DNA of 64,000 nt, from positions 4,030,001 through 4,094,000 of the forward strand of contig NZ_JAFBCN010000001.1 in NCBI RefSeq assembly GCF_016907755.1. The letters run 5' to 3'. Of the stretch, positions 10,255 to 53,435 are shown in pieces. Both the position numbers and the translations under genes were made by a program. Position 1 is the first letter of the stretch. Each line of letters opens with the position of its first letter. A model generated the notes under the pieces. That model was given only the letters and a program-made list of their open reading frames with translations. It was not told where the DNA came from and did not search any database. This stretch comes from Cellulosimicrobium cellulans. Lineage in GTDB: Bacteria; Actinomycetota; Actinomycetes; Actinomycetales; Cellulomonadaceae.

Positions 10255-10315
10255 CGGTTCATCGTAGGTTCGGCGAAGCCCGTGATTCCCGTCTGTCGCC
10301 CCCGTTCGACCATGC

Positions 10316-10354
10316 GGTCGTGGCCCGTCCGGACGTCCCGGACGGGCCACGACC
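10316..10354 (-). terminator. Terminator hairpin downstream of the xylanase gene
   Basis: A perfect 17-bp stem (10316-10332 with 10338-10354, 5-nt loop) starts 14 nt after the xylanase stop. With its left flank it shares the run CATGCGGTCGTGGCCCGTCC with the hairpin at 17511-17570, 7 kb away. Confidence 0.75.
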
Positions 10355-10368
10355 ACTCGCTCCGCGGG

Positions 10369-28384: not shown

Positions 28385-29599
28385 GTGCAGGCGACCACGG
28401 AACCCGCGATCCGCGTCGCCGGGCTGGGCAAGACCTACCGGCTCGGGGCGTTCGGCGAGCGACCGTCGACGGCGGCGTCCGCCGCGATCCAGTGGATCCG
28501 GTCGACCGGCAAGCAGAAGTACACGCTGTTCGACGCCCTCGACGACGTCTCCTTCGAGGTCCCGCAGGGCGAGGCGCTCGGGATCGTCGGGCGCAACGGT
28601 GCTGGCAAGTCCACGCTGCTCAAGATCCTCACGCGCGTCACGGCCCCCACGCGCGGACGCATCGAGCTCACCGGGCGCGTCGGGTCGCTCCTGGAGGTCG
28701 GCACGGGGTTCCACCCCGAGCTCACCGGCAAGGAGAACATCTTCCTCAACGGCGCGATCCTCGGGATGACGCGCAAGGAGATCACCAAGCGCTACGACGA
28801 GATCGTCGCGTTCTCCGGCATCGAGAAGTTCCTCGCGACCCCGGTCAAGCGCTACTCGTCCGGCATGTACGTCCGGCTCGCGTTCTCCGTCGCGGCCCAC
28901 CTCGACACCGAGATCCTCGCGATCGACGAGGTGCTCGCCGTCGGCGACGCCGAGTTCCAGCGCCGCTCGATCCAGAAGATGCGCGAGGCTGCCCAGGGCG
29001 GCCGCACGGTGCTCTACGTGAGCCACCAGCTCCAGACGGTCCAGGCGCTGTGCACGTCCGCGGTCCTCCTCGACCGCGGGACCCTGAAGTACTCGGGCAC
29101 GGTCGAGGGCACGCTCCAGGCGTACCGCGACAGCTTCGAGAGCTTCGCCGCGGCGCAGTCCGACCCCAAGAAGCGCCCCGGCAACGGCAAGGTCCGGCTC
29201 TCCTCGGTCCACATGGAGGACGAGTTCGTCAAGTCGTCCCAGGACATCGTCGTCGACTTCGAGGCACCCGCGAGCAAGAAGCTCGTCGGGACCTACTTCG
29301 TCTCGATGCACATCAACAACGACCAGGGGACCGTCATCGCGCAGTGCGACTCGCGGCTCGTCGGGAAGTGGTTCGACCCGGAGCAGCCCCAGAAGGGCCG
29401 CCTCGTGGTCCGCGACCTGTGGCTCAAGCCGGGCCAGTACACGGTCGACGTCTACGCGTGCCAGGCCGGCGTGCTCGACGCCTGGGAGGGCGCATGGCGC
29501 TTCGAGGTGCTGCCCGACCTCCCCTACCCGGAGTTCACGGAGGCGTCCAGCACCGAGAAGGGCATGGTCTTCGTGAACTTCGAGTACGAGGGGGCCTGA
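28385..29599 (+). CDS. wzt: Polysaccharide ABC transporter ATP-binding protein (Wzt type)
   Basis: 404 residues. The ATPase half has Walker A GIVGRNGAGKSTLLKIL, the Q-loop region ELTGKENIFLNGAILGM, signature KRYSSGMYVRLAFSV, Walker B EILAIDEVLAVGD and the switch His in LYVSHQ. The extra ~150 residues after about position 255 form a beta-rich domain like the C-terminal carbohydrate-binding domain of Wzt, which in the E. coli O8/O9a systems recognises the capped end of the glycan. It pairs with Wzm directly downstream (1-nt gap) to export a lipid-linked polysaccharide. GTG 28385 is chosen from the -10 position; no Shine-Dalgarno is present. Confidence 0.93.
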   Translation: MQATTEPAIRVAGLGKTYRLGAFGERPSTAASAAIQWIRSTGKQKYTLFDALDDVSFEVPQGEALGIVGRNGAGKSTLLKILTRVTAPTRGRIELTGRVGSLLEVGTGFHPELTGKENIFLNGAILGMTRKEITKRYDEIVAFSGIEKFLATPVKRYSSGMYVRLAFSVAAHLDTEILAIDEVLAVGDAEFQRRSIQKMREAAQGGRTVLYVSHQLQTVQALCTSAVLLDRGTLKYSGTVEGTLQAYRDSFESFAAAQSDPKKRPGNGKVRLSSVHMEDEFVKSSQDIVVDFEAPASKKLVGTYFVSMHINNDQGTVIAQCDSRLVGKWFDPEQPQKGRLVVRDLWLKPGQYTVDVYACQAGVLDAWEGAWRFEVLPDLPYPEFTEASSTEKGMVFVNFEYEGA

Positions 29600-29600
29600 C

Positions 29601-30431
29601 ATGGAGCAGACCGTGCAGCGCACCGTCATCACGCCGCCGGGGCGCCTCAACCTGCCGGCCTGGCGCGAGCTGTGGAACGCGCGCGAGGTCGCCGTCCGCC
29701 TCGCGCTGCGGGACATCATCGTGCGATACCGGCAGACGATCTTCGGCATCACGTGGGTCGTCGCGCAGCCGCTGGTCAGCGCCGGCATCTTCACGATCGT
29801 CTTCGGGGAGATCGCGGGGCTGTCGACGGGGAAGATCCCCACCTTCCTCTTCACGCTCGCGGGCATGCTCGCGTGGAACCTGTTCAACGGCTCCCTCGGC
29901 CGGGCCTCCGGCTCGATGGTCGGGAACCAGTCGCTCGTCCAGAAGGTGTTCTTCCCGCGCCTCCTGGTCCCGATCTCGAGCCTCGCCTCCGTCGTGCTCG
30001 ACTTCCTCGTCGCGCTCGCGCTCGCGGTCGTGCTGCTCTTCGTCTACGGGATCAACCCCGGCTGGGCGGTCCTGCTGCTGCCCGTCTGGGTGCTGCTCAT
30101 CCTCCTGATCGGCACGGGCATCGGCCTCGCCGCGGCCGCCTACATGGTCAAGTACCGCGACGTCGGCTACGTGCTCCCGTGGCTCATCCAGATCCTCCTG
30201 TACGCGAGCCCGGTCGCCTACGCACTCTCCTCCGTCCCGGAGAACCTGCGCTGGCTCTTCGACATCAACCCGGTGACGTGGTTCCTCGAGGGCTTCCGCT
30301 GGTCGCTGCTCGGCACCGACTTCCCGCCGACGTGGCAGGTCGTGGCGCTCGTGGTGGCCGCTCCCCTGATCTTCCTCGGCGGGACGCTCGTGTTCCAGAA
30401 GAACGAGCGCGAGTTCGCGGACTTCATCTGA
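29601..30431 (+). CDS. wzm: Polysaccharide ABC transporter permease (Wzm type)
   Basis: 276 residues with about six hydrophobic segments and the ABC-2 permease pattern: an N-terminal amphipathic part (WRELWNAREVAVRLALRDIIVRYRQTIFGITWVVAQPLV), VFFPRLLVPISSLASVVLDFLVAL, and YVLPWLIQILLYASPVAYALSSVPENLRWLFDINPVTWFLEGFRW. These match O-antigen/teichoic acid exporters (Wzm/TagG). With Wzt it forms the channel for undecaprenyl-linked polymer across the membrane. The ATG lies 1 nt after the wzt stop, and its stop overlaps the next ATG, so the operon continues. Confidence 0.94.
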   Translation: MEQTVQRTVITPPGRLNLPAWRELWNAREVAVRLALRDIIVRYRQTIFGITWVVAQPLVSAGIFTIVFGEIAGLSTGKIPTFLFTLAGMLAWNLFNGSLGRASGSMVGNQSLVQKVFFPRLLVPISSLASVVLDFLVALALAVVLLFVYGINPGWAVLLLPVWVLLILLIGTGIGLAAAAYMVKYRDVGYVLPWLIQILLYASPVAYALSSVPENLRWLFDINPVTWFLEGFRWSLLGTDFPPTWQVVALVVAAPLIFLGGTLVFQKNEREFADFI

Positions 30432-34555: not shown

Positions 34556-35541
34556 TGGCCGGGGGTGCGGTGCCGGAGCTGAGCGTGGTCATCGCCGCGT
34601 TCGACGCGCAGGACACGCTGGACGAGCAGCTGGACGCGCTCGCCGGGCAGGACGTCGGGTTCGCGTTCGAGGTCCTGGTGTGCGACAACGGCTCGCGCGA
34701 CGCCACGCCCGACCTGGTGCGCGGCCGTCAGGAGCACGAGCCGTGGCTGCGGCTCGTGGACGCCTCGGCGCGGCGCGGCCCGTCCGCGGCGCGCAACATC
34801 GGCGCCGGGCAGGCACGAGGCCGGTACCTCGCGTTCTGCGACGCGGACGACGTGGTGGGCCAGGGCTGGCTCGCCGGGATGCACGACGCCCTCCAGCACG
34901 ACGAGTTCGTCACCGGCAGCTGGGAGGGCGACCGCCTCAACAGCGGCGACGGCACGACGGTGTCGTGGATGGTGGAGAGCGTCTACCGCATGGACTTCCT
35001 GCCGTGGCTGCCCGCCACGGGTGCGGGAACCATGGGGATCCGTCGCTCCGTCTTCGAGGAGGCGGGCGGCTTCGACGAGCGACTGGCCACCAACGAGGAC
35101 ACGGACCTGTCGTGGCGGGTGCAGCTCGCCGGGCACCCCCTGGTGCACCACCCCGAGATCGTGCTGCACGTGCGCAAGCGCGACGGGCTGCGCGCGATCT
35201 TCCGCCAGGCCTACGCCTACGGCGCGGGCGACCGGACGCTGCGCCACCGCTACACGGACGTCGTCGCCGCGTACCAGCGCCGGGAGGACCAGCCCTCCAG
35301 GACGGCGGCACCTGTCCCGGAGCAGCGGTCCGCTGACGGTCCGGAGGCCACGGCCGGGCGTGCCGCGCGGGCGATCGGCTCGGCGCGGCGCGTGCTCGGC
35401 AAGGTCGCGCAGGTCCGGAGCCGGAGGGACCTCGCCGACCGGGTGCAGCGCGTCGGGCACGACCTGGGCTTCCGGTTCGGGCGGACCGACACGACCGTCG
35501 AGCGCGTCCCCGTGCCCCCGGTCCTGCCCGACCCGTCGTAG
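34555..35541 (+). CDS. Glycosyltransferase family 2, left copy of the inverted-repeat pair
   Basis: 328 residues. GT2 motifs: ELSVVIAAFDAQDTLDEQLDAL, FEVLVCDNGSRD, RYLAFCDADDVVGQGWLAGM (DAD metal motif) and EEAGGFDERLATNEDTDLSWRVQLAG. Residues about 4-131 are encoded by the perfect 383-bp inverted repeat shared with the minus-strand gene at 35606-36589. Beyond it the two proteins are related but different (DGTTVSWMVESVYRM here). The C-terminal ~80 residues are basic and variable. ATG 34555 shares its A with the upstream stop (TGATG); GTG 34552 is an alternative. Last gene of the wzt operon. Confidence 0.92.
   Translation: MAGGAVPELSVVIAAFDAQDTLDEQLDALAGQDVGFAFEVLVCDNGSRDATPDLVRGRQEHEPWLRLVDASARRGPSAARNIGAGQARGRYLAFCDADDVVGQGWLAGMHDALQHDEFVTGSWEGDRLNSGDGTTVSWMVESVYRMDFLPWLPATGAGTMGIRRSVFEEAGGFDERLATNEDTDLSWRVQLAGHPLVHHPEIVLHVRKRDGLRAIFRQAYAYGAGDRTLRHRYTDVVAAYQRREDQPSRTAAPVPEQRSADGPEATAGRAARAIGSARRVLGKVAQVRSRRDLADRVQRVGHDLGFRFGRTDTTVERVPVPPVLPDPS
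34565..34947 (+). repeat. 383-bp perfect inverted repeat, left arm
   Basis: Every base pairs with 36570-36188 in opposite orientation (position x pairs with 71135 minus x). It covers codons ~4-131 of the glycosyltransferase gene on the plus strand. Compared by eye line by line with no mismatch; identity stops abruptly at both ends. Confidence 0.97.
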
Positions 35542-35605: not shown

Positions 35606-36589
35606 TCAGACCGGTGGCGGGAGGACGGCGGGTGCCGGGACCCGCGGTGCGGCGGGGTCGACGCGACCCCACCGGTATCCCGCTCGCTCGCCCACGCGCC
35701 AGACCGTCTCGGCGAGACCCGCCCGGCCGCGCGACAGCTTGTTCCGGACCGTGCGCACCACGCGACGGACGACCGCGAGCCCACCGGGTCCGGCGCCGCC
35801 GGCACCAGCGGGCGCGTCCGGGGCGGTGGCGACCGAACCCGGCGACGCGGCACCGGCCGTGAAGGCGGCGGCCACGTCGGCGTAGCGGTGCCGCAGGAGC
35901 CGGTCGCCCGCGCCGTAGGCATAGGCCTGGCGGAAGATGGCGCGCAGACCGTCGCGCTTGCGGACGTGGAGCACGATCTCGGGGTGGTGGACGAGGCGGT
36001 GCCCGGCGAGCTGGACCCGCCACGACAGGTCGACGTCCTCACCCGTCACGAGCGACTCGTCGAAGCCGTCGGCCTCCTCGAAGACGGCACGACGGATCCC
36101 CATGGTCCCCGCGCCGGTGCCGGGGAGCCACGGGAAGAAGGGCTTCGTGACGATCGGGTCGGTCGTCCAGGAGACGGAGGCCCGGTTGCCGCTGTTGAGG
36201 CGGTCGCCCTCCCAGCTGCCGGTGACGAACTCGTCGTGCTGGAGGGCGTCGTGCATCCCGGCGAGCCAGCCCTGGCCCACCACGTCGTCCGCGTCGCAGA
36301 ACGCGAGGTACCGGCCTCGTGCCTGCCCGGCGCCGATGTTGCGCGCCGCGGACGGGCCGCGCCGCGCCGAGGCGTCCACGAGCCGCAGCCACGGCTCGTG
36401 CTCCTGACGGCCGCGCACCAGGTCGGGCGTGGCGTCGCGCGAGCCGTTGTCGCACACCAGGACCTCGAACGCGAACCCGACGTCCTGCCCGGCGAGCGCG
36501 TCCAGCTGCTCGTCCAGCGTGTCCTGCGCGTCGAACGCCGCGATGACCACGCTCAGCTCCGGCACCGCACGCCCTCCCGCAGCCGTCAC
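35606..36589 (-). CDS. Glycosyltransferase family 2, right copy of the inverted-repeat pair
   Basis: 327 residues, GT2 fold, the same N-terminal 128 residues as the plus-strand gene at 34555 (ELSVVIAAFDAQDTLDEQ to DRLNSG) and a diverged C-terminal part (NRASVSWTTDPIVTKPFF, EEADGFDESLVTGEDVDLSWRVQLAG, a different basic tail). GTG 36589 overlaps the deacetylase stop (GTGA), so it is translated from the leftward two-gene operon. It converges on its twin, leaving 64 nt between the stops. The identical N-terminal half probably fixes donor binding and the C-terminal half acceptor choice (inference from GT2 structure). Confidence 0.92.
   Translation of the reverse strand: MTAAGGRAVPELSVVIAAFDAQDTLDEQLDALAGQDVGFAFEVLVCDNGSRDATPDLVRGRQEHEPWLRLVDASARRGPSAARNIGAGQARGRYLAFCDADDVVGQGWLAGMHDALQHDEFVTGSWEGDRLNSGNRASVSWTTDPIVTKPFFPWLPGTGAGTMGIRRAVFEEADGFDESLVTGEDVDLSWRVQLAGHRLVHHPEIVLHVRKRDGLRAIFRQAYAYGAGDRLLRHRYADVAAAFTAGAASPGSVATAPDAPAGAGGAGPGGLAVVRRVVRTVRNKLSRGRAGLAETVWRVGERAGYRWGRVDPAAPRVPAPAVLPPPV
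36188..36570 (-). repeat. 383-bp perfect inverted repeat, right arm
   Basis: Mirror copy of 34565-34947. It covers codons ~7-134 of the minus-strand glycosyltransferase gene in the same reading phase, so recombination between arms keeps both frames open. Confidence 0.97.
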
Positions 36590-37572: not shown

Positions 37573-39870
37573 GTGGAGCCGACGCCTGCGCTGCCCCGGG
37601 GGACGCGCGTCCTCGATCTCGGCGCGCGCGACGGCGCCGTCGCCGCCGACCTTCGCGCCGTCGGTCTCGACCGCTACCTCGGGCTCGTCGATCCCGGGCA
37701 CCTGGCCGCGGCACGTCGCGCGGCCGGCGACCTCGCGGACCGCCTCCACCCCGTGCCGTCGGCCGACGTGGCGACGCGCTGCTCGACGGACCTGCTGATC
37801 CTGCGCGCCGACCACGCGCGCGTCCTGTGGACGGTGCGCGACCTCGGCCACCTGCGCTACCTCGCGGTCGAGCGCGGCGCCGGGGTGACGACCCTGGAGG
37901 CGCGCCTCGCCGTCCTCGTCGGCCGGGCGGGTGGTCGCCTCTCCCCGCTCGGCCGGTTCGTCTGGGGCGGGCGCGCCTTCGACCTGTTCCGCCTGCCGCC
38001 GCCGCACGGCCCGGCCCCGCGGACCTACTTCTCCCCCGTCTGGGGTGCCTCCGGCCTCGCGACCCGGCTCAAGGAGGCGGGCCTGCGGTACGCGGTCCTG
38101 CGGTGGTTCGACACGCTCCCGGTGATCGAGCCCGGTGAGGACCTCGACGTCCTCGTCGCGGACGACGACGTCGACGCGCTGCGCGGGCTCCTCGAGTCGG
38201 AGCCGGGGACGATGCCCGTGGACCTCTACAGCGTGTCCGGGCTCGCGGCGTCGGACTACCAGGGGGCGGCCTACTACCCCCCGGCCCTCGCCGAGCAGGT
38301 CCTCGACCGGGCCGTGGTGCACGAGAGCGGGTTCCTCGTGCCGTCGCCGCAGGACCACCTGCACTCGCTCGCGTACCACGCGGTCTACCACAAGGGCCGC
38401 CGCTCGGGCCTGCCCTCGCACGGCCTCGGACCTGCCGAGCCGGAGCCCGAGCACGACTACCCCGCGGAGCTCCGACGGCTCGCCCAGGCGCAGGGGGTCG
38501 CGCTCGACCCCTGGTACGAGGACGTGGACGCGTACCTCGGGTCCGTCGGGTGGCGGCCGCCGACCGACGCGCTGCGGCGGCTGTCCGCCGGGAACGCGTG
38601 GGCGCGGGGTCTGCTCGCGACCGACCACGACGCCCGGCTCGGCGACGCGGAGCTCGCCGTCTTCCTCGTGCGCGAGGCCACGCTCGCCGTCGTCCCCGCC
38701 GGCCAGGTCGAGGCGGTGCTCGACCGCTTCGGGTTCGACGTGCTCCTGGCGAGCGACCTCGACCCCGTGGCCCGGGAGCGTGCGGCGACGGCGCTGCGCG
38801 GCGGCAACTGGGGGCGCGGCCCGTTCCCCCGCAGCGGGGGCGACCCCGTGCGCATGGTCGTCGCGCTCCACTACGCGCCGGAGGAGCCCTACGACTGGCT
38901 GCGCGAGCGCTACCCGCACCTGACCAACGCCGAGACGTTCGAGGCGAAGTCGGAGGTCCGCGCGCTCGTCGAGCAGCGCGTGCCCGCGCACCTCCGGTTC
39001 AACCCGCTGCACTCCTCGGACAGCACGGCGGAGGCGTGGGAGTACCTCGACGTGATCGTGCCCGACGCCGTGGAGACCGTGCGGGCCGAGGCCGAGCGAC
39101 GTGCCGCGCAGCACGTCGCGCCACCCGGCACGGTCCGCACGCTCAGCGTCGGCCGGCGCGCGCGCGTCGACGTCGTCGCCGACGCGGACGGCCGCCTCGT
39201 CGTGCGCAAGACGTTCGCCCCGCCGTTCGCCCGGTTCCTCGACCGCGAGCTCACCGCGCTCCGTGAGCTCGGGGGCCGCGTCGCCGCGGTCCCCCCGCTC
39301 GTCGCCGCCGGCCCCGACTGGTTCGCGTGCCCCTGCTACGAGGACTCCCTCGGCACGACCCGGTCGAGGACGGGCCTGCTCCCGCTCGCGGTCGTGCGCG
39401 AGATGGTCGAGGTCCTGCGCGAGCTGCACGGCCTCGGCTACGACCTGGTGGACGCGAAGCCCGGCAACTTCGTCCTCGACCCCGTGCACGGGCTCAAGGT
39501 CGTCGACTTCGAGTTCCTCCACCGGTACGACGACGAGCCGCCTCCCTTCGCGCGCGCCGTGGGGCTCGTCGGCCCGGGTCCCGAGTTCCCCGGTGACGTC
39601 CCGGTGGGCGACATGGGCTACGACGCGCGGTGGCTCGCCGCGACGGGCCTGCCGCTCGACGTGCTCGTCGACGGGTCCGTCGCCGCCCAGCACCTGGCCC
39701 GGGCGCGGTACCGCCTGCGGCTGCTGACCGTCCTCCCCGGCGCGCCGCCGCGGCGCGTCGTGCGCCGGGCGCGCGCGACCGCGCGGCACGCACGGTGGCT
39801 CGCCACGTCCCGGTACACCGAGTGGGCCCGACGTCGTGCCGCGTCCGGGCGTGAGACAGGAGCACGATGA
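37573..39870 (+). CDS. Multidomain protein: methyltransferase-like, nucleotidyltransferase-like and kinase-like regions
   Basis: 765 residues, soluble. Residues ~8-130 start with RVLDLGARDGAVAADLRAVGL, a class I methyltransferase motif I. Around 165-260, YAVLRWFDTLPVIEPGEDLDVLVADDD resembles the GxxxDxDV core of nucleotidyltransferase-fold proteins. Residues ~540-690 look like a protein-kinase/LPS-kinase fold: VRKTFAPPFARFLDREL (Lys), LHGLGYDLVDAKPGNFVLDPVHG (catalytic D-x-K-P-x-N) and LKVVDFEFLHRYDD (metal Asp). Methyltransferase-kinase fusion suggests capping of glycan ends as in WbdD (inference). GTG 37573 fits the leaderless promoter. It is first in a three-gene coupled operon. Confidence 0.65.
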   Translation: MEPTPALPRGTRVLDLGARDGAVAADLRAVGLDRYLGLVDPGHLAAARRAAGDLADRLHPVPSADVATRCSTDLLILRADHARVLWTVRDLGHLRYLAVERGAGVTTLEARLAVLVGRAGGRLSPLGRFVWGGRAFDLFRLPPPHGPAPRTYFSPVWGASGLATRLKEAGLRYAVLRWFDTLPVIEPGEDLDVLVADDDVDALRGLLESEPGTMPVDLYSVSGLAASDYQGAAYYPPALAEQVLDRAVVHESGFLVPSPQDHLHSLAYHAVYHKGRRSGLPSHGLGPAEPEPEHDYPAELRRLAQAQGVALDPWYEDVDAYLGSVGWRPPTDALRRLSAGNAWARGLLATDHDARLGDAELAVFLVREATLAVVPAGQVEAVLDRFGFDVLLASDLDPVARERAATALRGGNWGRGPFPRSGGDPVRMVVALHYAPEEPYDWLRERYPHLTNAETFEAKSEVRALVEQRVPAHLRFNPLHSSDSTAEAWEYLDVIVPDAVETVRAEAERRAAQHVAPPGTVRTLSVGRRARVDVVADADGRLVVRKTFAPPFARFLDRELTALRELGGRVAAVPPLVAAGPDWFACPCYEDSLGTTRSRTGLLPLAVVREMVEVLRELHGLGYDLVDAKPGNFVLDPVHGLKVVDFEFLHRYDDEPPPFARAVGLVGPGPEFPGDVPVGDMGYDARWLAATGLPLDVLVDGSVAAQHLARARYRLRLLTVLPGAPPRRVVRRARATARHARWLATSRYTEWARRRAASGRETGAR

Positions 39871-40808
39871 CCCTCCCCGAGCCCGCCGCGGGCACCCCGC
39901 GCCCCACCGTCACCGTGGTCGTGCCGGTGTACAACGACGTCGCGCGCCTGCGGACCTGCCTCGCGGCCCTCGCGGCCCAGGACTACCCGGCCGACCGGTT
40001 CGACGTCGTCGTGGCGGACAACGCCTCGACCGAGGACCTGCGGCCCGCGCTCCCCGCCGGGGACGACCGCTTCGCCGTCGTCCTCGAGCCGCGGCGCGGG
40101 TCGTACGTCGCGCGCAACACGGCGGCGCGACGCGCGACGGGCGAGGTGCTCGCGTTCACCGACGGGGACTGCATCCCGCGCCCGGACTGGCTCTCGCGCG
40201 CGGTCGCCGCGCTCACCGCCGACGACCCGCCCGACGCCGTCGGCGGCGACATCAACATCCTCTTCCGCGACGGGTCGCGCCCGACGACCGGTCCCGAGCT
40301 GTACGAGACGGTCGAGGGCTTCGACCAGGAGCGCTTCGTGACCGTGACGCACTTCGCGGCGACCGCGAACCTCGTCGTGCCGCGAGCGACGTTCGAGCGC
40401 GTCGGCGACTTCAACGCGGCGCTGAAGTCGGGCGGCGACCTCGAGTGGGGCCGCCGGCTGCAGGAGATCGGCGGCCGGCTCGACTTCGCGGCCGACGCGG
40501 TCGTCGACCACCCGTCGCGGCCGTCCTGGCGCGACCTCACGCACAAGACGGTCCGGATCACGCACGGCCTCGTCGACCTCACCGAGAACCCGGAGACCGC
40601 GGGCTTCGCGCGCGACAGCTGGCACAACACGAAGCAGACGTTCACGGTGTGGGTCCGCATCTGGCAGGCGCCCTGGCCCGAGGAGCGCGGCGCGAAGCTG
40701 CGGTTCGCCGCGGCGCGCAGCTACGCGGGCCTGCTGGAGCTGGGCGTCCGGGCACGACGGCGCGTCACCGACCGGGCGCGGGCCCGGCGCGCCGGGGCGA
40801 GCGGGTGA
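39867..40808 (+). CDS. Glycosyltransferase family 2
   Basis: 313 residues. GT2 start TVTVVVPVYNDVARLRTCLAALAAQDYP, FDVVVADNASTED, RRGSYVARNTAARRATGEVLAFTDGDCIPRPDWLSRAV with the DGD metal motif, ATANLVVPRATFERVGDFNAALKSGGDLEWGRRL for the acceptor side. Soluble; C-terminus basic. ATG 39867 overlaps the preceding stop (ATGA), and its own stop overlaps the following GTG. It sits between the two methyltransferase-kinase-like genes, so it may act near chain initiation or termination. Confidence 0.9.
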   Translation: MTLPEPAAGTPRPTVTVVVPVYNDVARLRTCLAALAAQDYPADRFDVVVADNASTEDLRPALPAGDDRFAVVLEPRRGSYVARNTAARRATGEVLAFTDGDCIPRPDWLSRAVAALTADDPPDAVGGDINILFRDGSRPTTGPELYETVEGFDQERFVTVTHFAATANLVVPRATFERVGDFNAALKSGGDLEWGRRLQEIGGRLDFAADAVVDHPSRPSWRDLTHKTVRITHGLVDLTENPETAGFARDSWHNTKQTFTVWVRIWQAPWPEERGAKLRFAAARSYAGLLELGVRARRRVTDRARARRAGASG

Positions 40809-42508
40809 CGGACGGCGTCGGCAGCGCCCGACGCGCGGCCGCGGACCGCCCCTGGCTCACGGTGCCGGAGCACGTGCGGCGCACGGTGCGGTCCGCGACG
40901 AGCGTCGAGCAGGTCATCGACGCGATGACCGACGCCGCGTCGCCCTGGCCGGTCGACCTCCAGCGCCGGCTCCTCCACCCCGCGTCGGGCGGCCCCGCCG
41001 TCCTCGTGCCGCGCGCCGGTGGGCGGGGCCTCGTCCTGGGGGGCGAGCGGCACGCCCTGGCGCCCGCGCTGCGCTTCCTGGGTCTCGACGTCGCACGGGC
41101 GGACTGGGTCGGCGACCGGCTGCGCTTCCAGCAGCTCGCCCACCCGGTGACCGACGCGACCGCCGTGCACCTCGACCTCCCCGCCCGCCTCCCGTTCCCC
41201 GACGCGACCTTCGACGTCGTCTGGGTCGACCTGGACGAGGTGCTCGCGCTCCTCGGGGTCCGCGCGTCCGGGGGCTTCCTGGGCGAGGTCGAGCGGGTCC
41301 TGGCACCCGGCGGGACGGTCGTCGCCGACGTCCGGCACCGCGGGCGGCGCGCCGTCGACGCGGCTCGACGACGCACGGCCCCGTCCGCGGGCGTGGCCGC
41401 GGACGTCGTGCCCGTGCGGCTCCTCCTCGCGCGTGCCGGGCTCGTCCCGGCCGGACGGCACGCCCTCCTGCCGCACCGCGACGACTGGTCCCGCCTCGTC
41501 CCCGCTGCGCGGGTGCGGGACGAGCTCGCCGGCACCGACCTCAGGACGGGGGCACGCCGGGCGACGGCCCGCACGCTCCGGGCCCTGGGCGGGTCGGGCG
41601 TCCTGGCGCCGGACGCCGTCGTGCTCGCGCGGCGCCGTCGCGATGCCGCTCACGACGTCACCCCCGGCACGACGACGCTGGCCGAACGGGTGGCGGGATC
41701 CGACCAACCCGTCGTCGGGGCGCTGTCCGACGCGCGGGTCTCCGTGCGCGGCGACCGGTTCGTCAAGGTCCCGCTGTCCGCTGACCAGCAGGAGGCCCTC
41801 GGGCGGGAGGTCGCGGCGACCCACGAGGCGGCCACGACGGGGTTCGGTCCTCTCGTGCTCGACGAGGTCGCGACGTCGTCGCACGACGGCGTCCGCGTCG
41901 CCGAGGCGCCGCTGCTCAGCGGTCGGCCCGTCTCCCTCGACGAGGCCGAGAACGTCCTGGTCCGGGCGCTGCGGGGCGTCACGGTGCCGGACGAGCACCG
42001 CCCGCTCCGGACGACGGCGGCCTGGCGGCGTCTCGCGTCCGCGCGGGGCGAGCGGGACTGCGCCGAGATCGGCGCCGCGGACCTGCGGGACCGTGTCCTG
42101 CGGACCCACGGCGAGCTGCTCGTCCCCGTCGGACCGACCCACGGCGACCTCCACCCGGACAACGTGCTCGTGACCGCCGAGGGCTCGGCGCACCTCGTCG
42201 ACTGGAACCGGTTCGAGCCCGACAACCCGCTCGTGCTCGACGCGGCGTACGCGGCGTGCCAGGTCCACCTGGCCCGGACGGGGTCGGGACTGGCCGAGGC
42301 GGTCCGACGGCTCGCGCACGACGAGCTGGACGGCCCGCTCGCGACGGTCGCGGCCTCCCGGCGCGGCGAGCTCACGCCCGCCCAGGTCGCGGTCCTCGTC
42401 GTGCTGGACCGGGTCGTCTCCTACAGCCTCCCGCGCCGCCGGCACAAGCCGTGGACGCTGCCCGGCGTGCGCGCGGCGGTCGTCGCGGTCGGGGCGCTCT
42501 CGGGCTGA
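40805..42508 (+). CDS. Methyltransferase-like plus aminoglycoside-phosphotransferase-like kinase fusion
   Basis: 567 residues. The N-terminal ~280 residues include ATAVHLDLPARLPFPDATFDVVWVDLDEVLALLG...GFLGEVERVLAPGGTVVADVR, the latter half of a SAM-dependent methyltransferase fold; motif I is weak. The C-terminal ~260 residues are APH/choline-kinase-like: VPVGPTHGDLHPDNVLVTAEGSAHLVDWNRFEPDNP has the catalytic HGDLHPDN and the metal Asp in VDWNRF. It is the second methyltransferase-kinase-type fusion in this operon. A role in phosphorylating or methylating glycan ends is plausible (inference). GTG 40805 overlaps the upstream stop (GTGA). Converges on the next GT2 gene with a 13-nt gap. Confidence 0.7.
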   Translation: MTDGVGSARRAAADRPWLTVPEHVRRTVRSATSVEQVIDAMTDAASPWPVDLQRRLLHPASGGPAVLVPRAGGRGLVLGGERHALAPALRFLGLDVARADWVGDRLRFQQLAHPVTDATAVHLDLPARLPFPDATFDVVWVDLDEVLALLGVRASGGFLGEVERVLAPGGTVVADVRHRGRRAVDAARRRTAPSAGVAADVVPVRLLLARAGLVPAGRHALLPHRDDWSRLVPAARVRDELAGTDLRTGARRATARTLRALGGSGVLAPDAVVLARRRRDAAHDVTPGTTTLAERVAGSDQPVVGALSDARVSVRGDRFVKVPLSADQQEALGREVAATHEAATTGFGPLVLDEVATSSHDGVRVAEAPLLSGRPVSLDEAENVLVRALRGVTVPDEHRPLRTTAAWRRLASARGERDCAEIGAADLRDRVLRTHGELLVPVGPTHGDLHPDNVLVTAEGSAHLVDWNRFEPDNPLVLDAAYAACQVHLARTGSGLAEAVRRLAHDELDGPLATVAASRRGELTPAQVAVLVVLDRVVSYSLPRRRHKPWTLPGVRAAVVAVGALSG

Positions 42509-43605: not shown

Positions 43606-45639
43606 ATGAGGGTCCTCCGCGTCTCGCACAGCGCCGTGGTCGACGCCTGGCGTGAGCGCGAGCGAGAGCTGCGCGCGCGGGGGGTCGACGTCCGGCTGCT
43701 CTCGGCGCGCGCGTGGGACGAGGGCGGCGCGACCGTCCGGCTCGTTCCCCGCCCGGGCGAGCCGGTGCGGGGCGTACGGACGCTCGGGTCGCACCCGGCG
43801 CTCTTCGTCTACGACCCGCTCCCCCTGTGGCGCGCGCTGGGACAGGGATGGGACGTGCTGGACGTGCACGAGGAGCCCTTCGCGCTCGCGACGGCGGAGA
43901 TCCTCCTGCTGCGCCGCCTGCGCGCGGTCGTGTCGCGTCGCCCCGCCCCGCAGTACCTCCTCTACTCGGCGCAGAACCTCGACAAGCACTACCCGTGGCC
44001 CTTCCGGTGGTTCGAGGCGCGCGCGCTGCGCGGCGCGGCGGCGGTGTCGGTCTGCAACGACGAGGCCGGCCGGATCGTCCGCGCCAAGGGCGCCCGGGGG
44101 CGTGTCGAGACGGTCCCGCTGGGGGTCGACCCGGCGGTCTTCGCGCCCGTGCCCGACGCCGTGCCCGGCCGTCCGTCCGACGCCGCGGACCAGGGGCTCG
44201 ACGCGGCTCGCCTCCGCGTGGGGTTCGCAGGGCGGCTGGCGCACCACAAGGGCGTCGACGTGCTCCTCGCGGCGGTCGCGGGCGACGACCGGCTCGACCT
44301 CGTCGTCGCGGGCGACGGTCCGGAGCGCGCGGCGCTCGAGGAGGCCGCGCGACCGCTCGGCGGCCGGGTCCGGTTCGTCGGCGCGCTCGGGGGCGACGAC
44401 CTCGTCGCGTTCTACCGCTCGCTCGACGCGCTCGCCGTGCCGTCACGCGAGACGCCGGGCTGGGTCGAACAGTTCGGGCGGGTCGCCGTCGAGGCCATGG
44501 CGTGCGGCGTCCCGGTCGTGGCGAGCAGCACGGGCGCGCTGCCCGACGTCGTCGGCGGCGCGGGCCTGCTCGTGGCCCCCGAGGACCCCGCCGCCCTGCG
44601 TGCCGCGCTCGCGCGCGTCCGCGACGAGGACGGCCTGGCCGACCGCCTGCGCGCCGCGGGCACCGAGCGCGCGGCCTCGTGCTCGTGGGCCGAGGTCGCC
44701 CGCCGCTACGAGGAGCTCTACCGCACGGCGGTCGGCGCCCGGCCGGGCCCGGCACGCGCGCGGGCGGGCGACGGGGGCGACCCGTCCGCGACCGTTCCGC
44801 CCGAGGTCGTCGTCGTCGCCTACGGCTCCCCCGCGATGGTGCGCGACGCGCTCGCCCCGCTCGCCGGGAAGTACCCGATCACGGTCGTCGACAACTCGTC
44901 CCTGCCCGAGATCCGGGAGATCACGGAGCTCGCGGGCGGGCGCTACCTCGACCCCGGCCGCAACGGCGGGTTCGCGGCAGGGGTCAACCACGCGCTCGCC
45001 CACCGCCAGGCGCCCGGCGCCGACGTCCTGCTGCTCAACCCGGACGCCGTGGTGACGCCCGAGGACGTCCAGACCCTCCACCGGTCGCTGCACGCCGCCC
45101 CGGGGCTCGCGAGCGTGGGGCCGCAGCAGGTCGACGACGACGGCGTCCGGGCGCGCGTGGTGTGGCCGTTCCCGTCCCCGGCGGCCACGTGGGTCGAGGC
45201 CGTCGGGCTCGCGGGGCTGCGCCGGACCCCGGCGGAGCGCTCGTTCGTCATCGGCTCGGTGCTGCTGCTCAACGCCGCTGCGGTGGACGACGTGGGCGGC
45301 TTCGACGAGCGCTTCTTCCTCTACGCGGAGGAGACCGACTGGGCGTACCGCGCCGTGCGGTCGGGGTGGCGGCACGCCGTCGTGCCCGACGCGCACGCGC
45401 TGCACCTCGGCGGTGCGACCAGCAGCGACCCGACCCGTCGGGAGACGCACTTCCACGCGTCGCAGGAGCGCTACCTGCGCAAGCACCACGGCCGCGCCGG
45501 CTGGGCGCTCGCGCGCGTCGGCGCCGTGCTCGGGGCGGCGGCACGTTCCGTCGCGCTGCGCGGGGACGGGCGCGAGTCGGCGCGGCGGCGGCTCCGGCTC
45601 TACCTCGTGGGGCCCGTGCGCGCGGAGTCGGCACTGTGA
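43606..45639 (+). CDS. Bifunctional GT4-GT2 glycosyltransferase
   Basis: 677 residues. The N-terminal ~390 residues are a GT4 enzyme (MRVLRVSHSAVVDAWRERERELRARG; VGFAGRLAHHKGVDVLLAAVAG; ETPGWVEQFGRVAVEAMACGVPVVASSTGALPDVVGG). The C-terminal ~280 residues are a GT2 of the rhamnosyltransferase kind (VVVVAYGSPAMVRDALAPL; YPITVVDNSSLPE; LDPGRNGGFAAGVNHAL; DVLLLNPDAVVTPEDV; GSVLLLNAAAVDDVGGFDERFFLYAEETDWAYRAVRSGW). Two consecutive sugar transfers from one chain are likely. ATG 43606 is chosen from the leaderless promoter. First of five coupled genes. Confidence 0.9.
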   Translation: MRVLRVSHSAVVDAWRERERELRARGVDVRLLSARAWDEGGATVRLVPRPGEPVRGVRTLGSHPALFVYDPLPLWRALGQGWDVLDVHEEPFALATAEILLLRRLRAVVSRRPAPQYLLYSAQNLDKHYPWPFRWFEARALRGAAAVSVCNDEAGRIVRAKGARGRVETVPLGVDPAVFAPVPDAVPGRPSDAADQGLDAARLRVGFAGRLAHHKGVDVLLAAVAGDDRLDLVVAGDGPERAALEEAARPLGGRVRFVGALGGDDLVAFYRSLDALAVPSRETPGWVEQFGRVAVEAMACGVPVVASSTGALPDVVGGAGLLVAPEDPAALRAALARVRDEDGLADRLRAAGTERAASCSWAEVARRYEELYRTAVGARPGPARARAGDGGDPSATVPPEVVVVAYGSPAMVRDALAPLAGKYPITVVDNSSLPEIREITELAGGRYLDPGRNGGFAAGVNHALAHRQAPGADVLLLNPDAVVTPEDVQTLHRSLHAAPGLASVGPQQVDDDGVRARVVWPFPSPAATWVEAVGLAGLRRTPAERSFVIGSVLLLNAAAVDDVGGFDERFFLYAEETDWAYRAVRSGWRHAVVPDAHALHLGGATSSDPTRRETHFHASQERYLRKHHGRAGWALARVGAVLGAAARSVALRGDGRESARRRLRLYLVGPVRAESAL

Positions 45640-47045
45640 CGCAGCGCGCGCCGCTCCTGCGCCGCCGGCCCGTGCTCTACCGCGCGCCGCGCGTCCCGGG
45701 CACCCTCGTCGCACGCGGCCGGACAGCCGCCACCTGGGTCGCGGGCGGGGCCGTGGTCGTCGCGCTCCTCGCCGTCCTCGGGTTCGTCGTGCCCGAGCTC
45801 CAGATGGCCGCCGTCGGCGGCGCGCTCGTGGTGCTCGTCGTCGGGCTCACGGCGTACGAGCCGGTGGCCCTGCCGATCCTCGCCATGCCCGCGCTCGTGA
45901 TCGTCCAGCGCGTCGGCGGGGGCGGGGTCGACCTCTCGCTCAGCGACTTCGCGCTGTTCGGCGCGTTCTGGTTCGCGCTCTTCTTCTCGCCGCGGCCGTT
46001 CTCGCGGCCGATGCGGGCGATGCTCTGGCTGTCGCTCGTCTACCAGGTCGCGACGCTCTTCACCGTGCTCGTCAACCCGTTCAGCGCGAACGTCGTCGAG
46101 TGGTTCCACGCCTGGCTCTCCGTCGCGGGCGCCCTCGTCCTGGGCTGGGCCGTCGGCCGCTCGGGTCGCGCCCGGCTCGGCCTGACCCTCTTCCTGCTGC
46201 CCTGCCTCGCGATCGCGGCGCAGACCTGCCTCGTCGCGCTCCAGCAGCTCGCGGCGGGCAACACGGGGCCCGTGTACATCGACTCGCCCCTCGCGATGCA
46301 CAAGAACTTCATCGGGTGCGTGCTCGCGTTCGCCGCCCTCGTCGCCTACGCGCGTCCCTGGTGGGTCGGCTGGCCGCGCTGGTTCTCGCTCGGCGCCTTC
46401 TGGCTGTGCTCTCTCGGCGTGCTCGCCGCGCAGGCACGCCAGGCCCTCATCGGCCTCGCGATCGGCATCATGCTCATCACCCTGCGCGGCGACCCCGACC
46501 GCAAGCGCTCGAAGCTCATCCTGCTCGCCGCGGTCCCGGCGATCTACTTCGTCGTGCTCGCGGTGCAGGAGCAGCTCGAGTCCGGGAACGAGTTCAACTC
46601 CGCCAACCAGCGGCTCACCTGGTACGCGGACTCGATCGAGGTGTGGCAGCGCAGCCCCTGGGTCGGGATGGGGCTGCGGTGGTGGACCGCCGGCGTCACG
46701 GAGTTCGTCTTCCAGCCGCCCAACGTCGAGCTCGAGGTGCTGACGTCCGCCGGGATCGTCGGGCTCGTCGGGTTCCTCGTGCTGTTCCTCGGCGGGATGG
46801 GGGTGCTCTGGCGCATCAACCCGCGCTTCGGGACCCTCGCGTTCTCGATGCTCATGATGCGCTTCGTCCAGGGGCAGTTCGACCTCTTCTGGGTGTCCGT
46901 CCAGGTGACCGTCCCCTTCGTCATCGTCGGCGTGTGCCTGGGCGCCGAGTCCTACGCCGAGTCGCGGCAGCACGCCCGCGACGTGACCGGTCGGGAGCTC
47001 CCTCTCGACGAGCTGCGGTCCGTGCGGGAGATGGCCGAGCGATGA
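45636..47045 (+). CDS. O-antigen ligase/polymerase-like membrane protein
   Basis: 469 residues with about ten hydrophobic segments and a large external loop, the topology of Wzy/WaaL (PF04932-type) proteins. The loop region QEQLESGNEFNSANQRLTWYADSIEVWQRSPWVGMGLRWW contains the RxxxW...P..G.G pattern of that family. It would polymerise or ligate lipid-linked repeat units outside the membrane. GTG 45636 overlaps the preceding stop (GTGA). Its presence beside an ABC-2 exporter means two assembly modes may coexist in the locus. Which reaction it performs cannot be read from sequence. Confidence 0.85.
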   Translation: MTQRAPLLRRRPVLYRAPRVPGTLVARGRTAATWVAGGAVVVALLAVLGFVVPELQMAAVGGALVVLVVGLTAYEPVALPILAMPALVIVQRVGGGGVDLSLSDFALFGAFWFALFFSPRPFSRPMRAMLWLSLVYQVATLFTVLVNPFSANVVEWFHAWLSVAGALVLGWAVGRSGRARLGLTLFLLPCLAIAAQTCLVALQQLAAGNTGPVYIDSPLAMHKNFIGCVLAFAALVAYARPWWVGWPRWFSLGAFWLCSLGVLAAQARQALIGLAIGIMLITLRGDPDRKRSKLILLAAVPAIYFVVLAVQEQLESGNEFNSANQRLTWYADSIEVWQRSPWVGMGLRWWTAGVTEFVFQPPNVELEVLTSAGIVGLVGFLVLFLGGMGVLWRINPRFGTLAFSMLMMRFVQGQFDLFWVSVQVTVPFVIVGVCLGAESYAESRQHARDVTGRELPLDELRSVREMAER

Positions 47046-50408: not shown

Positions 50409-51564
50409 GCACCCGCGCCGTGCGCTCCACGGGGAACCGGCGGAGCGCCGACGTGCGTGCCCGGAGCGCGCGCTCGCGGGCCGCGGCCGGGTCGCGCAGC
50501 ACGTCGAGGAGCGCCGCCGCGAGCGCGTCGACGTCACCGGGCGGCACGAGGAGCCCGAGCGTCGGGGGCCCCTCCTCGGGGTCGTCGAGGATCTCCTCGA
50601 CACCGCCCGCCCGTGTCGCGACGACCGGGACGCCGCGGACCATCGCCTCGACGACGACCTGCCCGAACGGCTCCGGCACGGGCGACGCGTGCACGCACAC
50701 CGCCGCCCGGTCGAGCTCCGCGCGCGGGTCGGCGACGAACCCGACGTGCTCGACGTGGTCGTCGAGCCCGAGCCGGGTCACCTCGGCCCGGACCTGCGCC
50801 GCGTAGCCCTCGGCGCCGAACGCCGGCTCCCCGACCACCCGCAGCCGCGCCGTCGGCACCGCGTCCACGACCGCGCGCAGCGCGCGCACCACCTCGAGCT
50901 GGCCCTTGGTCGGGCTGACCCGCCCGACCATCACGACCAGGGGATCGGGCTCGGCCGCGCGACCGACGAGCGCCGCCTCGGTCCCCTCCGCCTGCTCCGG
51001 GGCGAAGCCCGGGTAGGCGACCGCCGTCGTCACGGGCAGCGTCGCAGCCGTCGCACGCGAGTTCGCGACCACCGCCGCCGGGACCCGGCGCGCCAGCCCC
51101 CGGACGACCCGGACGAGCGGACCGGGCAGGTAGTCGGGGGCGATGCGGTCGTGGACGTGCCACACGAGCGGTCGGCGCGCGAGCGTCGCCGGCACGACCC
51201 CCAGGAGGTCCGCCTTGAGCGACGTCGTGTGCACGACGTCGGGCCGCAGCGCCCGGACGCGCCGCGCGAGCCGCCAGAGGAAGGGGACGGTCCGCAGGGC
51301 GCCCGTGAGCGTCGCCGCCGACAGCCGCCCGGCACGCCCGCGGTCGGCTGTCGCGACAGCGGGCGCGAGCGGGACGACGTCGACCCGCACCCCGAGCTCC
51401 TCGAGGCGTGCGCGCAGGGGTCCGTCGGCGAAGAGCAGCGCCCGGACGTCCACCCCGGGCCCGAGCGCCGCGCACGTGCGCACGAGCGCCAGCTCGGCGC
51501 CACCGAGCTCCGCCGTGTGGTCGAGGACGAGGACCCGGAGCGGCGGACCGCCCGGGGCGGTCAC
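50362..51564 (-). CDS. Glycosyltransferase family 4
   Basis: 400 residues, GT-B: LRVLVLDHTAELGGAELALVRTCAAL (GGAE loop), VVANSRATAATLPV, VVMVGRVSPTKGQLEVVRALRAVV and the donor site SPVPEPFGQVVVEAMVRGVPVVATRAGGVEEILDD. Soluble. GTG 51564 gives a GTGA overlap with the stop of the Wzz/kinase-like gene, in keeping with the rest of the locus; the adjacent GTG 51567 is also possible. Third gene of the leftward operon led by the GT4 at 54601. Tail-to-tail overlap of 47 nt with the TuaH-like gene. Confidence 0.92.
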   Translation of the reverse strand: MTAPGGPPLRVLVLDHTAELGGAELALVRTCAALGPGVDVRALLFADGPLRARLEELGVRVDVVPLAPAVATADRGRAGRLSAATLTGALRTVPFLWRLARRVRALRPDVVHTTSLKADLLGVVPATLARRPLVWHVHDRIAPDYLPGPLVRVVRGLARRVPAAVVANSRATAATLPVTTAVAYPGFAPEQAEGTEAALVGRAAEPDPLVVMVGRVSPTKGQLEVVRALRAVVDAVPTARLRVVGEPAFGAEGYAAQVRAEVTRLGLDDHVEHVGFVADPRAELDRAAVCVHASPVPEPFGQVVVEAMVRGVPVVATRAGGVEEILDDPEEGPPTLGLLVPPGDVDALAAALLDVLRDPAAARERALRARTSALRRFPVERTARVLTDVWTSVSGPARRA

Positions 51565-53435
51565 CACCGGAAGGGACGCTTGCGCTCGTCGGGCCCGGCC
51601 TCGTCACCGGTCTCGTCCGGCGCTGCCGGTTCGACCTTGCTCCACGCCGGGGCGAGAACGGGGTGCCGCTTGCCCGGACCCTGGGACCCGCGGGGCGCCG
51701 GGGCGCCGTCGGCCGTGGGCGTGCCGCCGACGGGCACCGAGGGCGGCGCGGGGCGCCCCGACGCGCTGTCCACCGCGACCGCGGCGGCGGCCACCGACGC
51801 ACGTCGCGTGCCGACCGCGCGCTCGGTGCCGTCCGCGGTGGTCCCACCCTCCGGCTGGCCGGACCGCGCCGGCTCGGACTGCTCGGCAGGGGCGTCGGGA
51901 CGCTCGGGCGCCGCGGGCGCGACGGAGGGCGCGGGTACCGCCGCCCGGGCGTCACCGGCCTCCTGCGTCGTGTCGTCGCCGTACGTCGAGGCATAGAGCA
52001 TGCGGCGGTCGCCCGTGACCCCGGTCAGCGCGATGCCGAGCAGCGGGACGTTGCTGACGCGCAGCCGCTCCACCGCCTCCGCGAGCACCGCACGGTCGGT
52101 GCGCCCGGCGGACGCGATGAGCACGACGCCGTTGGCGTAGCCCCCGAGGATCGTCGCGTCGGCGGCCGCCAGGACGGGAGGCGCGTCCACCACCACGACC
52201 TCCGCGTGGTCGCGCAGGCTCCGGACGAGCCCTCGCGCCCTCTCCGTGGCGAGGAAGTCCGCCGGGTCCATCTCCTCCTCGGGCACCGGCATGACCCGCA
52301 GGTTGGGTACCGACGTCAGGCGCAGCTCCTGCTCCTGACCGTCCCAGTCGTCGGGGGCCGGGAGCATGCGGTCGAGCTGCGGGCGCCGCAGGTCGCCGGA
52401 CAGCGCCACCGTGCGGCGCCCGCTGAGCGCGAAGGACGCCGCGAGGTTCGCCGTGATGAACGAGCGGGGCGCCGACGGGTCGGCCGCGGTGACGACCACG
52501 ACCGCGTGCTTCATGCCGGCGGTGGACACCTGCACGGCGGTGCGCAGCTCGCGGATCGACTCCGTGAAGGGCGTCGCGACCTTGCTCGCGACGGGCAGGG
52601 CGTGCGTGTGGGTGAACTCCTTCTCCGCCGGCCGCGTGCCGTAGAGCTCGGCGAGGACCGGGGTCTCGGTGAGCCGCGTGGACTCGGCCGCGCTCCGGAC
52701 GCGGACGTCGAGCCCCCGCCGGGCGAACGCGAGCCCGACCCCTGCCACGAGGCCCACGAGGAGGGCCAGCGCCAGCACCGTGAGCCGCGAGAGCCCGAGA
52801 GGCTCGGCCCCCGTCGCCGGCGCGACGACCTCGCCCGGCACGGCGATGCCGCGCAGCGAGTTGATCTGCACCGTGAGCGCGGAGTAGTCGCCGACGATGA
52901 TGTCCTGCTCGGCGAGCGCCAGCGGGTCCTCAGGGTCGGCCCCCAGCCGCTGGCGGACGCCCGCGAGCTGGTCGGCGAGCGCCTGCCGGCGGCTCTCGAG
53001 CTCGGCGACCTGGTCGGCCTGGATCGTGACGAGCTGGTCCACGTACGCGTCGGCGAAGGCGTTCGCGACCTCGACGGACCGCGCCTCGTCGGGGGTCGTG
53101 GCCTCGACCGCGACCGTCTTGTTCTCGCCGTCGACGTCGCCGGAGACCTGGTCGGCCAGCTCGTCCGCCGCCTCCGGCTCGCCGAGCGCGGACGCCGCGG
53201 CGTCGGCGACCTCGGGCGAGGTGACGTCGTCGGCGTCGGTCGCGACCGTGACCTCGACGAGCGACTCCCCGCCCTGAGCGCTCTGCACGCCGTAGAGCTG
53301 GACCGTCGCGGTCGCGCGGTACATCGTCTCCTGGCGGTCGACGTAGAACAGCGCGGCGGCGACGACGACGAGGACGGCGGCGAGCACGTAGTACTTGCCC
53401 GCCCAGATCGTGCGGAGGAACTCCCTGATGGTCAT
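51561..53435 (-). CDS. Wzz/BY-kinase-like chain-length regulator with degenerate P-loop
   Basis: 624 residues. An N-terminal membrane segment (YYVLAAVLVVVAAALFYV) and a Wzz-type external domain with coiled coil (about 40-210) lead to a second membrane segment (LTVLALALLVGLVAGVGLAFA, about 230). The cytosolic part follows the BY-kinase layout (PFTESIRELRTAVQ, then a P-loop position, ALSGDLRRPQLDRM for Walker A', EVVVVDAPPVL for Walker B). But the P-loop reads AADPSAPRSFITANLA instead of GxGKS/T, and the ~130-residue Pro/Ala-rich tail has no tyrosine cluster. It is likely a non-catalytic regulator. ATG 53435 overlaps the preceding stop (ATGA). Confidence 0.88.
   Translation of the reverse strand: MTIREFLRTIWAGKYYVLAAVLVVVAAALFYVDRQETMYRATATVQLYGVQSAQGGESLVEVTVATDADDVTSPEVADAAASALGEPEAADELADQVSGDVDGENKTVAVEATTPDEARSVEVANAFADAYVDQLVTIQADQVAELESRRQALADQLAGVRQRLGADPEDPLALAEQDIIVGDYSALTVQINSLRGIAVPGEVVAPATGAEPLGLSRLTVLALALLVGLVAGVGLAFARRGLDVRVRSAAESTRLTETPVLAELYGTRPAEKEFTHTHALPVASKVATPFTESIRELRTAVQVSTAGMKHAVVVVTAADPSAPRSFITANLAASFALSGRRTVALSGDLRRPQLDRMLPAPDDWDGQEQELRLTSVPNLRVMPVPEEEMDPADFLATERARGLVRSLRDHAEVVVVDAPPVLAAADATILGGYANGVVLIASAGRTDRAVLAEAVERLRVSNVPLLGIALTGVTGDRRMLYASTYGDDTTQEAGDARAAVPAPSVAPAAPERPDAPAEQSEPARSGQPEGGTTADGTERAVGTRRASVAAAAVAVDSASGRPAPPSVPVGGTPTADGAPAPRGSQGPGKRHPVLAPAWSKVEPAAPDETGDEAGPDERKRPFRW

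Follow-up and report, generated by a model that had tools for sequence, protein, structure and literature searches.

A soil actinobacterium of the genus Cellulosimicrobium encodes, in a surface-sugar gene cluster within the 64,000-nucleotide stretch of DNA analysed here (the window), a four-domain protein, P0001, whose architecture is new and whose function we infer from its parts. Our best explanation, which taken as a whole we regard as an even call, places P0001 in a so far undescribed family of enzymes from glycan loci. The core of this family would be a nucleotidyltransferase (NTase) and a nucleoside diphosphate kinase (NDK)-related domain, working with a kinase that is either fused to this core or encoded by a neighbouring gene. 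The most probable role of the module is to phosphorylate a sugar of the exported glycan and to modify it further. The features of the locus are collected in Table 1.

Table 1 Genes and protein domains of the glycan locus, in window coordinates
Feature	Position	Strand	Evidence
Wzt, ABC transporter ATPase with Wzt_C	28385..29599 (NBD 28385-29170; Wzt_C 29171-29599)	+	Pfam ABC_tran and Wzt_C; best PDB match is ABC transporter entry 8dku
Wzm, ABC-2 membrane protein of glycan exporter	29601..30431	+	Pfam ABC2_membrane 1.7e-22
P0001, four domains (methyltransferase-like, NTase, NDK-like, kinase), 765 aa	37573..39870	+	AF2 model, pLDDT 87, pTM 0.75; 25 relatives in alignment A3
P0001 methyltransferase-like Rossmann domain	37573..37998	+	Strand/helix order in AF2 model
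P0001 NTase domain, NTP_transf_5-related, Asp190/192/217	38020..38607	+	hhalign to NTP_transf_5; Pfam
P0001 NDK-related domain, residues ~355-500	38635..39072	+	PDB profile, hhalign, Pfam NDK
P0001 protein-kinase-like domain, Lys546/Glu559/Asp627/Asn632/Asp645	39115..39672	+	hmmsearch and Foldseek
P0001 C-terminal Arg-rich helix, possibly membrane contact	39745..39852	+	Helix 725-760 in AF2 model, lower confidence
GT2 glycosyltransferase	39867..40808	+	Pfam Glycos_transf_2 4.7e-23; overlaps P0001 by 4 nt
P0003, methyltransferase (about 40922-41659) and APH-like kinase (about 41672-42424)	40805..42508	+	Pfam Methyltransf_11 and TCAD9; alignment A5
Wzy_C family protein, O-antigen ligase/polymerase-like	45636..47045	+	Pfam Wzy_C 7.4e-14
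Wzz/tyrosine autokinase (Wzc-like), alternative chain-length regulator	51561..53435	-	TIGR01007 2.8e-24, under curated cut-off; Pfam Wzz 0.003

Codon usage marks the reading frames of P0001 and P0003 as coding, and relatives conserve both. P0001, the GT2 glycosyltransferase and P0003 are consecutive, with start/stop overlaps of 4 nt each, and a GT2 gene is adjacent in at least 14 of the 25 P0001 relatives. The first-pass annotation had placed two fusion proteins in one operon beside a Wzt; the operon stands, but the Wzt lies 8 kb upstream of P0001, with two convergent genes on the minus strand in between, and thus belongs to the same locus but to a different operon. Its composition is that of a Wzt with a carbohydrate-binding domain, namely an ABC NBD followed by Wzt_C, with an adjoining ABC-2 permease. 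The extra C-terminal domain of ~150 residues that had been described is confirmed as Pfam Wzt_C of ~142 residues, which scores 31.0 bits when searched alone (cut-off 30.4) and matched no carbohydrate-binding domain of the PDB in phmmer.

Searches of Pfam, NCBIfam and the PDB with the single P0001 sequence returned almost no matches, so that domain-wise profiles were needed. The Foldseek match list of the whole model is dominated by kinases, and the assignment of the other domains therefore rests on profiles and model topology. Neither the family libraries nor the literature searched contained the four-module combination, no glycan enzyme joining an NDK to a nucleotidyltransferase was found in open-access papers, and no plasmid match was found for P0001.

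At the N-terminus, the AF2 model has the seven-strand topology of methyltransferases. Both fusion proteins had been proposed to begin with a methyltransferase-like region, which is correct for P0003 and holds for P0001 at the level of fold: its N-terminal profile matched no methyltransferase in the PDB, the alignment of 14 rows has only two invariant columns and no conserved SAM motif, and most rows lack the acid that follows strand 2. The domain is also missing from 11 of the 25 relatives. Judged from these alignments, it is probably a worn-out fold and not an active SAM enzyme.

The nucleotidyltransferase-like core noted in the first pass is borne out. The region aligns with NTP_transf_5 in hhalign with an E-value of 2.2e-6 (best of 100 shuffles, 0.0067), and the Pfam family is matched weakly by 12 of the 25 members, with 16.5 bits for the P0001 of the window against a cut-off of 31.2. 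The Asp triad is retained in 24 of 25 relatives, the exception being L051. PsmN, the nucleotidyltransferase of lasso-peptide clusters discussed below, is presumably also of NTP_transf_5 type.

The NDK-related domain, which the first-pass annotation had missed, is the most conserved part of P0001. In a PDB profile search, 17 of 20 matches are NDKs or chains with an NDK domain (best E 0.038), and hhalign against canonical NDKs gives an E-value of 5.7e-4 (best of 100 shuffles, 0.046), although the relation is remote, with an hhalign probability of 29% on its own. One family member reaches 5.2e-5 with Pfam NDK. Arg367, Arg409, Lys459, Arg463, Asn477, the catalytic His480 and Asp483 are present in all 25 relatives. 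With nucleoside diphosphate kinase (PF00334) the domain has in common the strand/helix order, the Asn/His/Asp block (N-x2-H-S-S-D) and equivalents of the phosphate-binding Arg residues, but it is very divergent, has its own RGGNWxxGPxPxSGGxP motif and is fused to the NTase and the kinase. These alignments suggest a remote homology of residues ~355-500 to the NDK fold family, with the catalytic His in N-x2-H-x-S-D, which is a statement about fold family and not about activity.

The kinase-like C-terminal regions that had been predicted in both proteins are indeed kinase folds with full catalytic motifs. That of P0001 matches protein kinases in hmmsearch at ~1e-7, and LanKC-type and protein kinases in Foldseek; its catalytic residues are retained in 22-23 of 23 relatives, with the motif lost in L037. 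The loss of the Asp triad in L051 and of the kinase motif in L037 indicates that some copies do without some of the steps. The catalytic residues of the NTase, NDK-like and kinase domains are otherwise intact in nearly all relatives that possess these domains, and the module occurs in Actinomycetota, Pseudomonadota, Planctomycetota, Verrucomicrobiota and Gemmatimonadota.

The same module occurs in fused and in split form. In sister species with a near-identical Wzt (C-terminal domains 85-94% identical) at the same locus, it is divided between two genes, one encoding the NDK and NTase domains in swapped order and the other the kinase. The split NDK region links significantly to that of P0001 in hhalign, and compared alone with canonical NDKs (five similar rows) it gives no significant match. 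Among 17 members of the genus, 11 have the module (6 fused, 5 split) and 6 lack it; it is present in 11 of 11 members with a Wzt_C at least 85% identical and in none of the 6 others. Since the genes move together as a single locus, this co-occurrence does not amount to independent evidence, and a more distant relative (G057) carries the module with a Wzt_C only 49% identical, which rules out that Wzt_C tracks the module strictly. Taken across these alignments, the constant core of P0001 is the nucleotidyltransferase together with the NDK-related domain.

In the scheme that we favour, the neighbouring GT2 would add a sugar to the lipid-linked glycan, and the kinase, as suggested by its fold and motifs, would phosphorylate this sugar. 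The NTase and the phosphohistidine-type NDK-like domain would then modify the phosphate, by nucleotidyl, second-phosphate or phosphodiester transfer, and the modified glycan would leave via Wzm/Wzt, where it may be recognised by Wzt_C. A precedent comes from lasso-peptide clusters, in which a kinase phosphorylates the peptide and a nucleotidyltransferase-family protein is needed for the addition of hexoses to the phosphate (PMC9266682). There, PsmN, annotated as a nucleotidyltransferase, follows the kinase PsmK on the phosphate as proposed for P0001, but the substrate is a peptide, the kinase is of an unrelated type and no NDK-like domain is described (PMC9266682). Spelled out in full, as a glycan-finishing machine in which the kinase phosphorylates the chain, the NTase and NDK-like phosphohistidine domain build on this an end group of nucleotidyl, pyrophosphate or phosphodiester type, and Wzt_C reads that group as export signal in these actinobacteria, the scheme becomes quite unlikely.

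A different role, in sugar activation and recycling, we consider rather unlikely. Here the kinase would make a sugar phosphate, the NTase an NDP-sugar, which the GT2 consumes, and the NDK-like domain would recharge the released NDP. The joining of kinase and NTase, the adjoining GT2 and the NDK-like domain would all fit, and HldE and FKP are kinase-nucleotidylyltransferase fusions that offer parallels. However, the NTase is probably of NTP_transf_5 type and not a Rossmann-type sugar nucleotidylyltransferase, and the P0001 kinase is protein-kinase-like and not a small sugar kinase. Moreover, planctomycete relatives without a kinase domain encode, within 3 kb, a fusion of a Kdo/WaaP-like kinase with a GT2, and Kdo/WaaP-like kinases phosphorylate sugars that are already in the glycan. 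These LPS kinases are likewise found in glycan loci, and the Kdo-type kinase-GT2 fusion takes the place of the kinase domain in the planctomycetes, in keeping with the scheme favoured above, whereas the P0001 kinase is nearer to LanKC and protein-kinase folds and is fused to the NTase-NDK core.

The first-pass annotation had instead proposed capping as by WbdD, in which methyltransferase-kinase fusions add a methyl-phosphate at the non-reducing end, elongation stops and Wzt_C reads the cap for export. What stands of this, apart from Wzt_C and the kinase folds of P0001 and P0003, is that P0003 is a genuine methyltransferase-kinase fusion (Methyltransf_11, 24.1 bits; cut-off 21.2), with the domain order of WbdD of E. 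coli O9a, whose locus also has Wzm/Wzt with Wzt_C (PMC3482155). The analogy fails where it is testable. The kinase of P0003 is not eukaryotic-type (Src/ROCK-like) as in WbdD; it has the fold and HGDxHxxN...D motif of the APH/choline kinase family, differing from these in its fusion to a methyltransferase-like domain, and its best Foldseek matches are homoserine kinase, APH and LicA (model of modest confidence, with a low-confidence methyltransferase half). Motif I is degraded in the window (LVLGGERHAL in Cellulosimicrobium, LDLGTGWSTL in Georgenia). WbdD has a C-terminal coiled-coil/WbdA-binding region of ~250 residues (PMC3482155), whereas P0003 extends ~30 residues past the kinase with no coiled coil, and P0001 ~65 residues with one helix in the model. 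P0001, whose kinase is protein-kinase-like, differs from WbdD in the NTase and NDK-like domains, which WbdD lacks and which lie between its methyltransferase-like domain and the kinase. No WbdD chain of the PDB was matched by the P0003 profile at E up to 1, and in the structural comparison that had been suggested WbdD is not among the 50 listed fold matches.

Of the 11 genus members whose Wzt_C is at least 85% identical, 4 have P0003 and 7 lack it; P0003 is an accessory gene of variable occurrence rather than a constant cap enzyme. (L033:5523-7157, at first aligned as a P0003 relative, was dropped as unrelated.) Elsewhere, P0001 relatives adjoin Wzx or MsbA-like exporters, so the module has no tie to Wzt capping, and the methyltransferase-like domain of P0001 is not conserved as an enzyme. 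In addition, the Wzz/BY-kinase and the Wzy_C protein of the locus itself could set chain length. WbdD-like capping is very unlikely; for P0001, an editing of phosphate groups on the exported chain of sugars is more probable than a repeat of the E. coli methyl-phosphate cap. A looser idea survives weakly, namely the synthesis of a phosphate-type end group for recognition by Wzt_C.

Least probable of all is a regulatory or scaffold protein, in which the kinase and non-catalytic methyltransferase-like, NTase-like and NDK-like modules control assembly while the Wzz/BY-kinase sets chain length: the apparently non-catalytic methyltransferase-like domain and the Wzz/tyrosine autokinase in the same locus would agree with it, but the catalytic residues of the other three domains are retained across phyla and the split form keeps NDK-NTase as a gene of its own.

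NDK folds are known chiefly as nucleotide housekeeping enzymes. That an NDK-related domain is the best-conserved part of P0001, tied to an NTase and a kinase across phyla, points to a phosphate chemistry not yet described for the surface glycans of bacteria. Since both arrangements of the module, fused and split, replace each other at one locus, they would also provide a clear-cut way of finding out what Wzt_C reads in Gram-positive bacteria.

The polysaccharide locus, delimited by codon-usage gene calls and Pfam, spans ~28 to 54.6 kb of the window, which belongs to a Cellulosimicrobium genome. Besides Wzt and Wzm, the locus encodes many glycosyltransferases along with a deacetylase, a GNAT protein, a Wzy_C protein and a Wzz/tyrosine autokinase; its named relatives are those of C. 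cellulans NBRC 15516, C. funkei U11 and Oerskovia flava. The first-pass annotation placed Wzt beside two methyltransferase-kinase fusion genes, P0001 and P0003, which indeed share the locus, but Wzt lies 8 kb upstream of their operon, with two minus-strand genes intervening. Its extra C-terminal domain was found by Pfam as Wzt_C. The conserved 280-aa protein encoded next to Wzm gave zero matches in Pfam and NCBIfam. The two convergent GT2 genes encode proteins with identical first ~131 residues and unlike C-terminal halves, and the inverted repeat common to both could permit inversion or gene conversion.

Coordinates of features in the window and in compared loci
Feature	Locus	Coordinates	Strand	Remark
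Conserved 280-aa protein	window	30431-31273		immediately 3' of Wzm
GT2, convergent pair	window	34555-35541	+	
GT2, convergent pair	window	35606-36565	-	
Inverted repeat	window	34561-34969 / 36166-36574		409 nt, 97%
P0001	window	37573-39870	+	four-base overlap with GT2
GT2	window	39867-40808		four-base overlap with P0003
P0003	window	40805-42508	+	
Large repeat protein	window	56416-60621		LamG, Ig or PKD
Large repeat protein	L138	7729-12204		LamG, Ig or PKD
Large repeat protein	L047	13115-19021		LamG, Ig or PKD
P0001-like copies/fragments	L037 (Gemmatimonadetes)	2-793 / 9806-12265		
P0001-like copies/fragments	L051 (Microvirga)	7103-7684 / 9959-11902		
P0001-like gene	L044 (Phyllobacteriaceae)	12593-14143		
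P0001-like gene	L045 (Phyllobacteriaceae)	12602-14182		

Both fusion genes encode real proteins, conserved in relatives. On profile and motif comparison, residues 355-500 of P0001 are assigned as a nucleoside diphosphate kinase (NDK)-related domain, which had been overlooked in the first reading. The region terminates in NPLHSSDS, the NDK active-site pattern, and its profile gave 20 matches at E up to 10 against all PDB chains, 17 of them being either nucleoside diphosphate kinases or chains with an NDK domain, the best at E 0.038. Alignment by hhalign to 20 canonical NDKs gave E 5.7e-4 over 122 columns, end to end and with the histidines paired, compared with 0.046 for the best of 100 column shuffles and 0.15 for the reversed profile; one P0001-family member matched Pfam NDK at 5.2e-5. 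This domain holds most invariant columns of the entire protein, including Arg367, Arg409, Lys459, Arg463, Asn477, His480 and Asp483 (25/25). The annotated kinase and nucleotidyltransferase core of P0001 also stand, with five kinase motif residues kept in 22-23 of the 23 relatives having the kinase, and the three nucleotidyltransferase Asp in 24 of 25. The methyltransferase assignment is not confirmed: a good AF2 model has the topology, but the N-terminal profile found zero methyltransferase matches in the PDB, just two columns are invariant across 14 aligned rows, where an acid is expected after strand 2, 4 rows have Asp and 6 have Pro, and the domain is missing from 11 of 25 relatives.

P0003 is, as annotated, a methyltransferase-family N-terminus joined to an APH-like kinase, the latter most like homoserine kinase, APH and LicA. 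It occurs in Cellulosimicrobium (4/17), Oerskovia, Actinotalea and Georgenia, with motif I intact in the last two and degraded in the window; in sister species its slot is taken by a P-loop protein or by a different kinase-like protein. The proposed WbdD-like capping fails against the WbdD features described in PMC3482155: P0003 shares the domain order, whereas the eukaryotic-type kinase, the coiled coil, a sequence match and co-distribution with Wzt_C were not found.

While the domains and residues of the P0001 module (NDK, nucleotidyltransferase and kinase) are established, its chemistry is inferred. A sugar kinase step would come first, followed by nucleotidyl or phosphate transfer onto the kinase-made phosphate, an order compatible with the active sites that are kept and with the precedent of lasso-peptide clusters, where a protein of the nucleotidyltransferase family works on the kinase product (PMC9266682). 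The main rival is nucleotide-sugar supply with NDP recycling.

Five genus members without P0001 (G003, G004, G009, G014 and G016) carry the module in split form, as a protein in which the NDK-like domain precedes the nucleotidyltransferase (domain-to-domain hhalign with P0001, E 5e-8 and 3e-10); a separate HGDLQPHN kinase gene overlaps or adjoins the split gene in G004, G009 and G016, the three loci read through there. The Wzt beside the split module is nearly identical to that of the window (C-terminal domain 85-94%). Wzt_C is at least 85% identical in 11 of the 17 genus members, six with the fused and five with the split form, and the remaining six have neither (Fisher p 8e-5, shared ancestry ignored). 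Two of these six were read (G008 and G015; loci L207 and L209) and have the same flanks, with Wzt_C 54% identical; in place of the module, their locus centre holds a cassette of deoxysugar, C-methyltransferase-like and FkbH/carrier-protein genes, identified by eye from sequence. The link between module and Wzt_C sequence is not strict, since in G057, a more distant relative, the Wzt_C that accompanies the split module is 49% identical.

Large LamG, Ig or PKD repeat proteins recur near P0001-like or split genes, and in split-type species a homologue lies within the locus. Second P0001-like copies or fragments stand near the first in L037 and L051. In Phyllobacteriaceae the genes that follow the P0001-like gene and its GT2 encode an HpcH/HpaI aldolase and a Sulfotransfer_5 protein, and no long glycan locus surrounds them.

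Relatives of P0001 are spread over five phyla, and at least 14 of 25 have a GT2 neighbour. They are adjoined by Wzx flippases at L039, L041 and L051, and by an MsbA-like exporter at L034 (Pfam) and at L035-L037 and L050 (BLAST and length). Both planctomycete relatives are without the kinase domain and have a Kdo/WaaP-like kinase-GT2 fusion within 3 kb. The nucleotidyltransferase-NDK core thus usually comes with a kinase, fused or close by. The glycan settings and the several exporter kinds therefore argue for a module that modifies glycans independently of Wzt.
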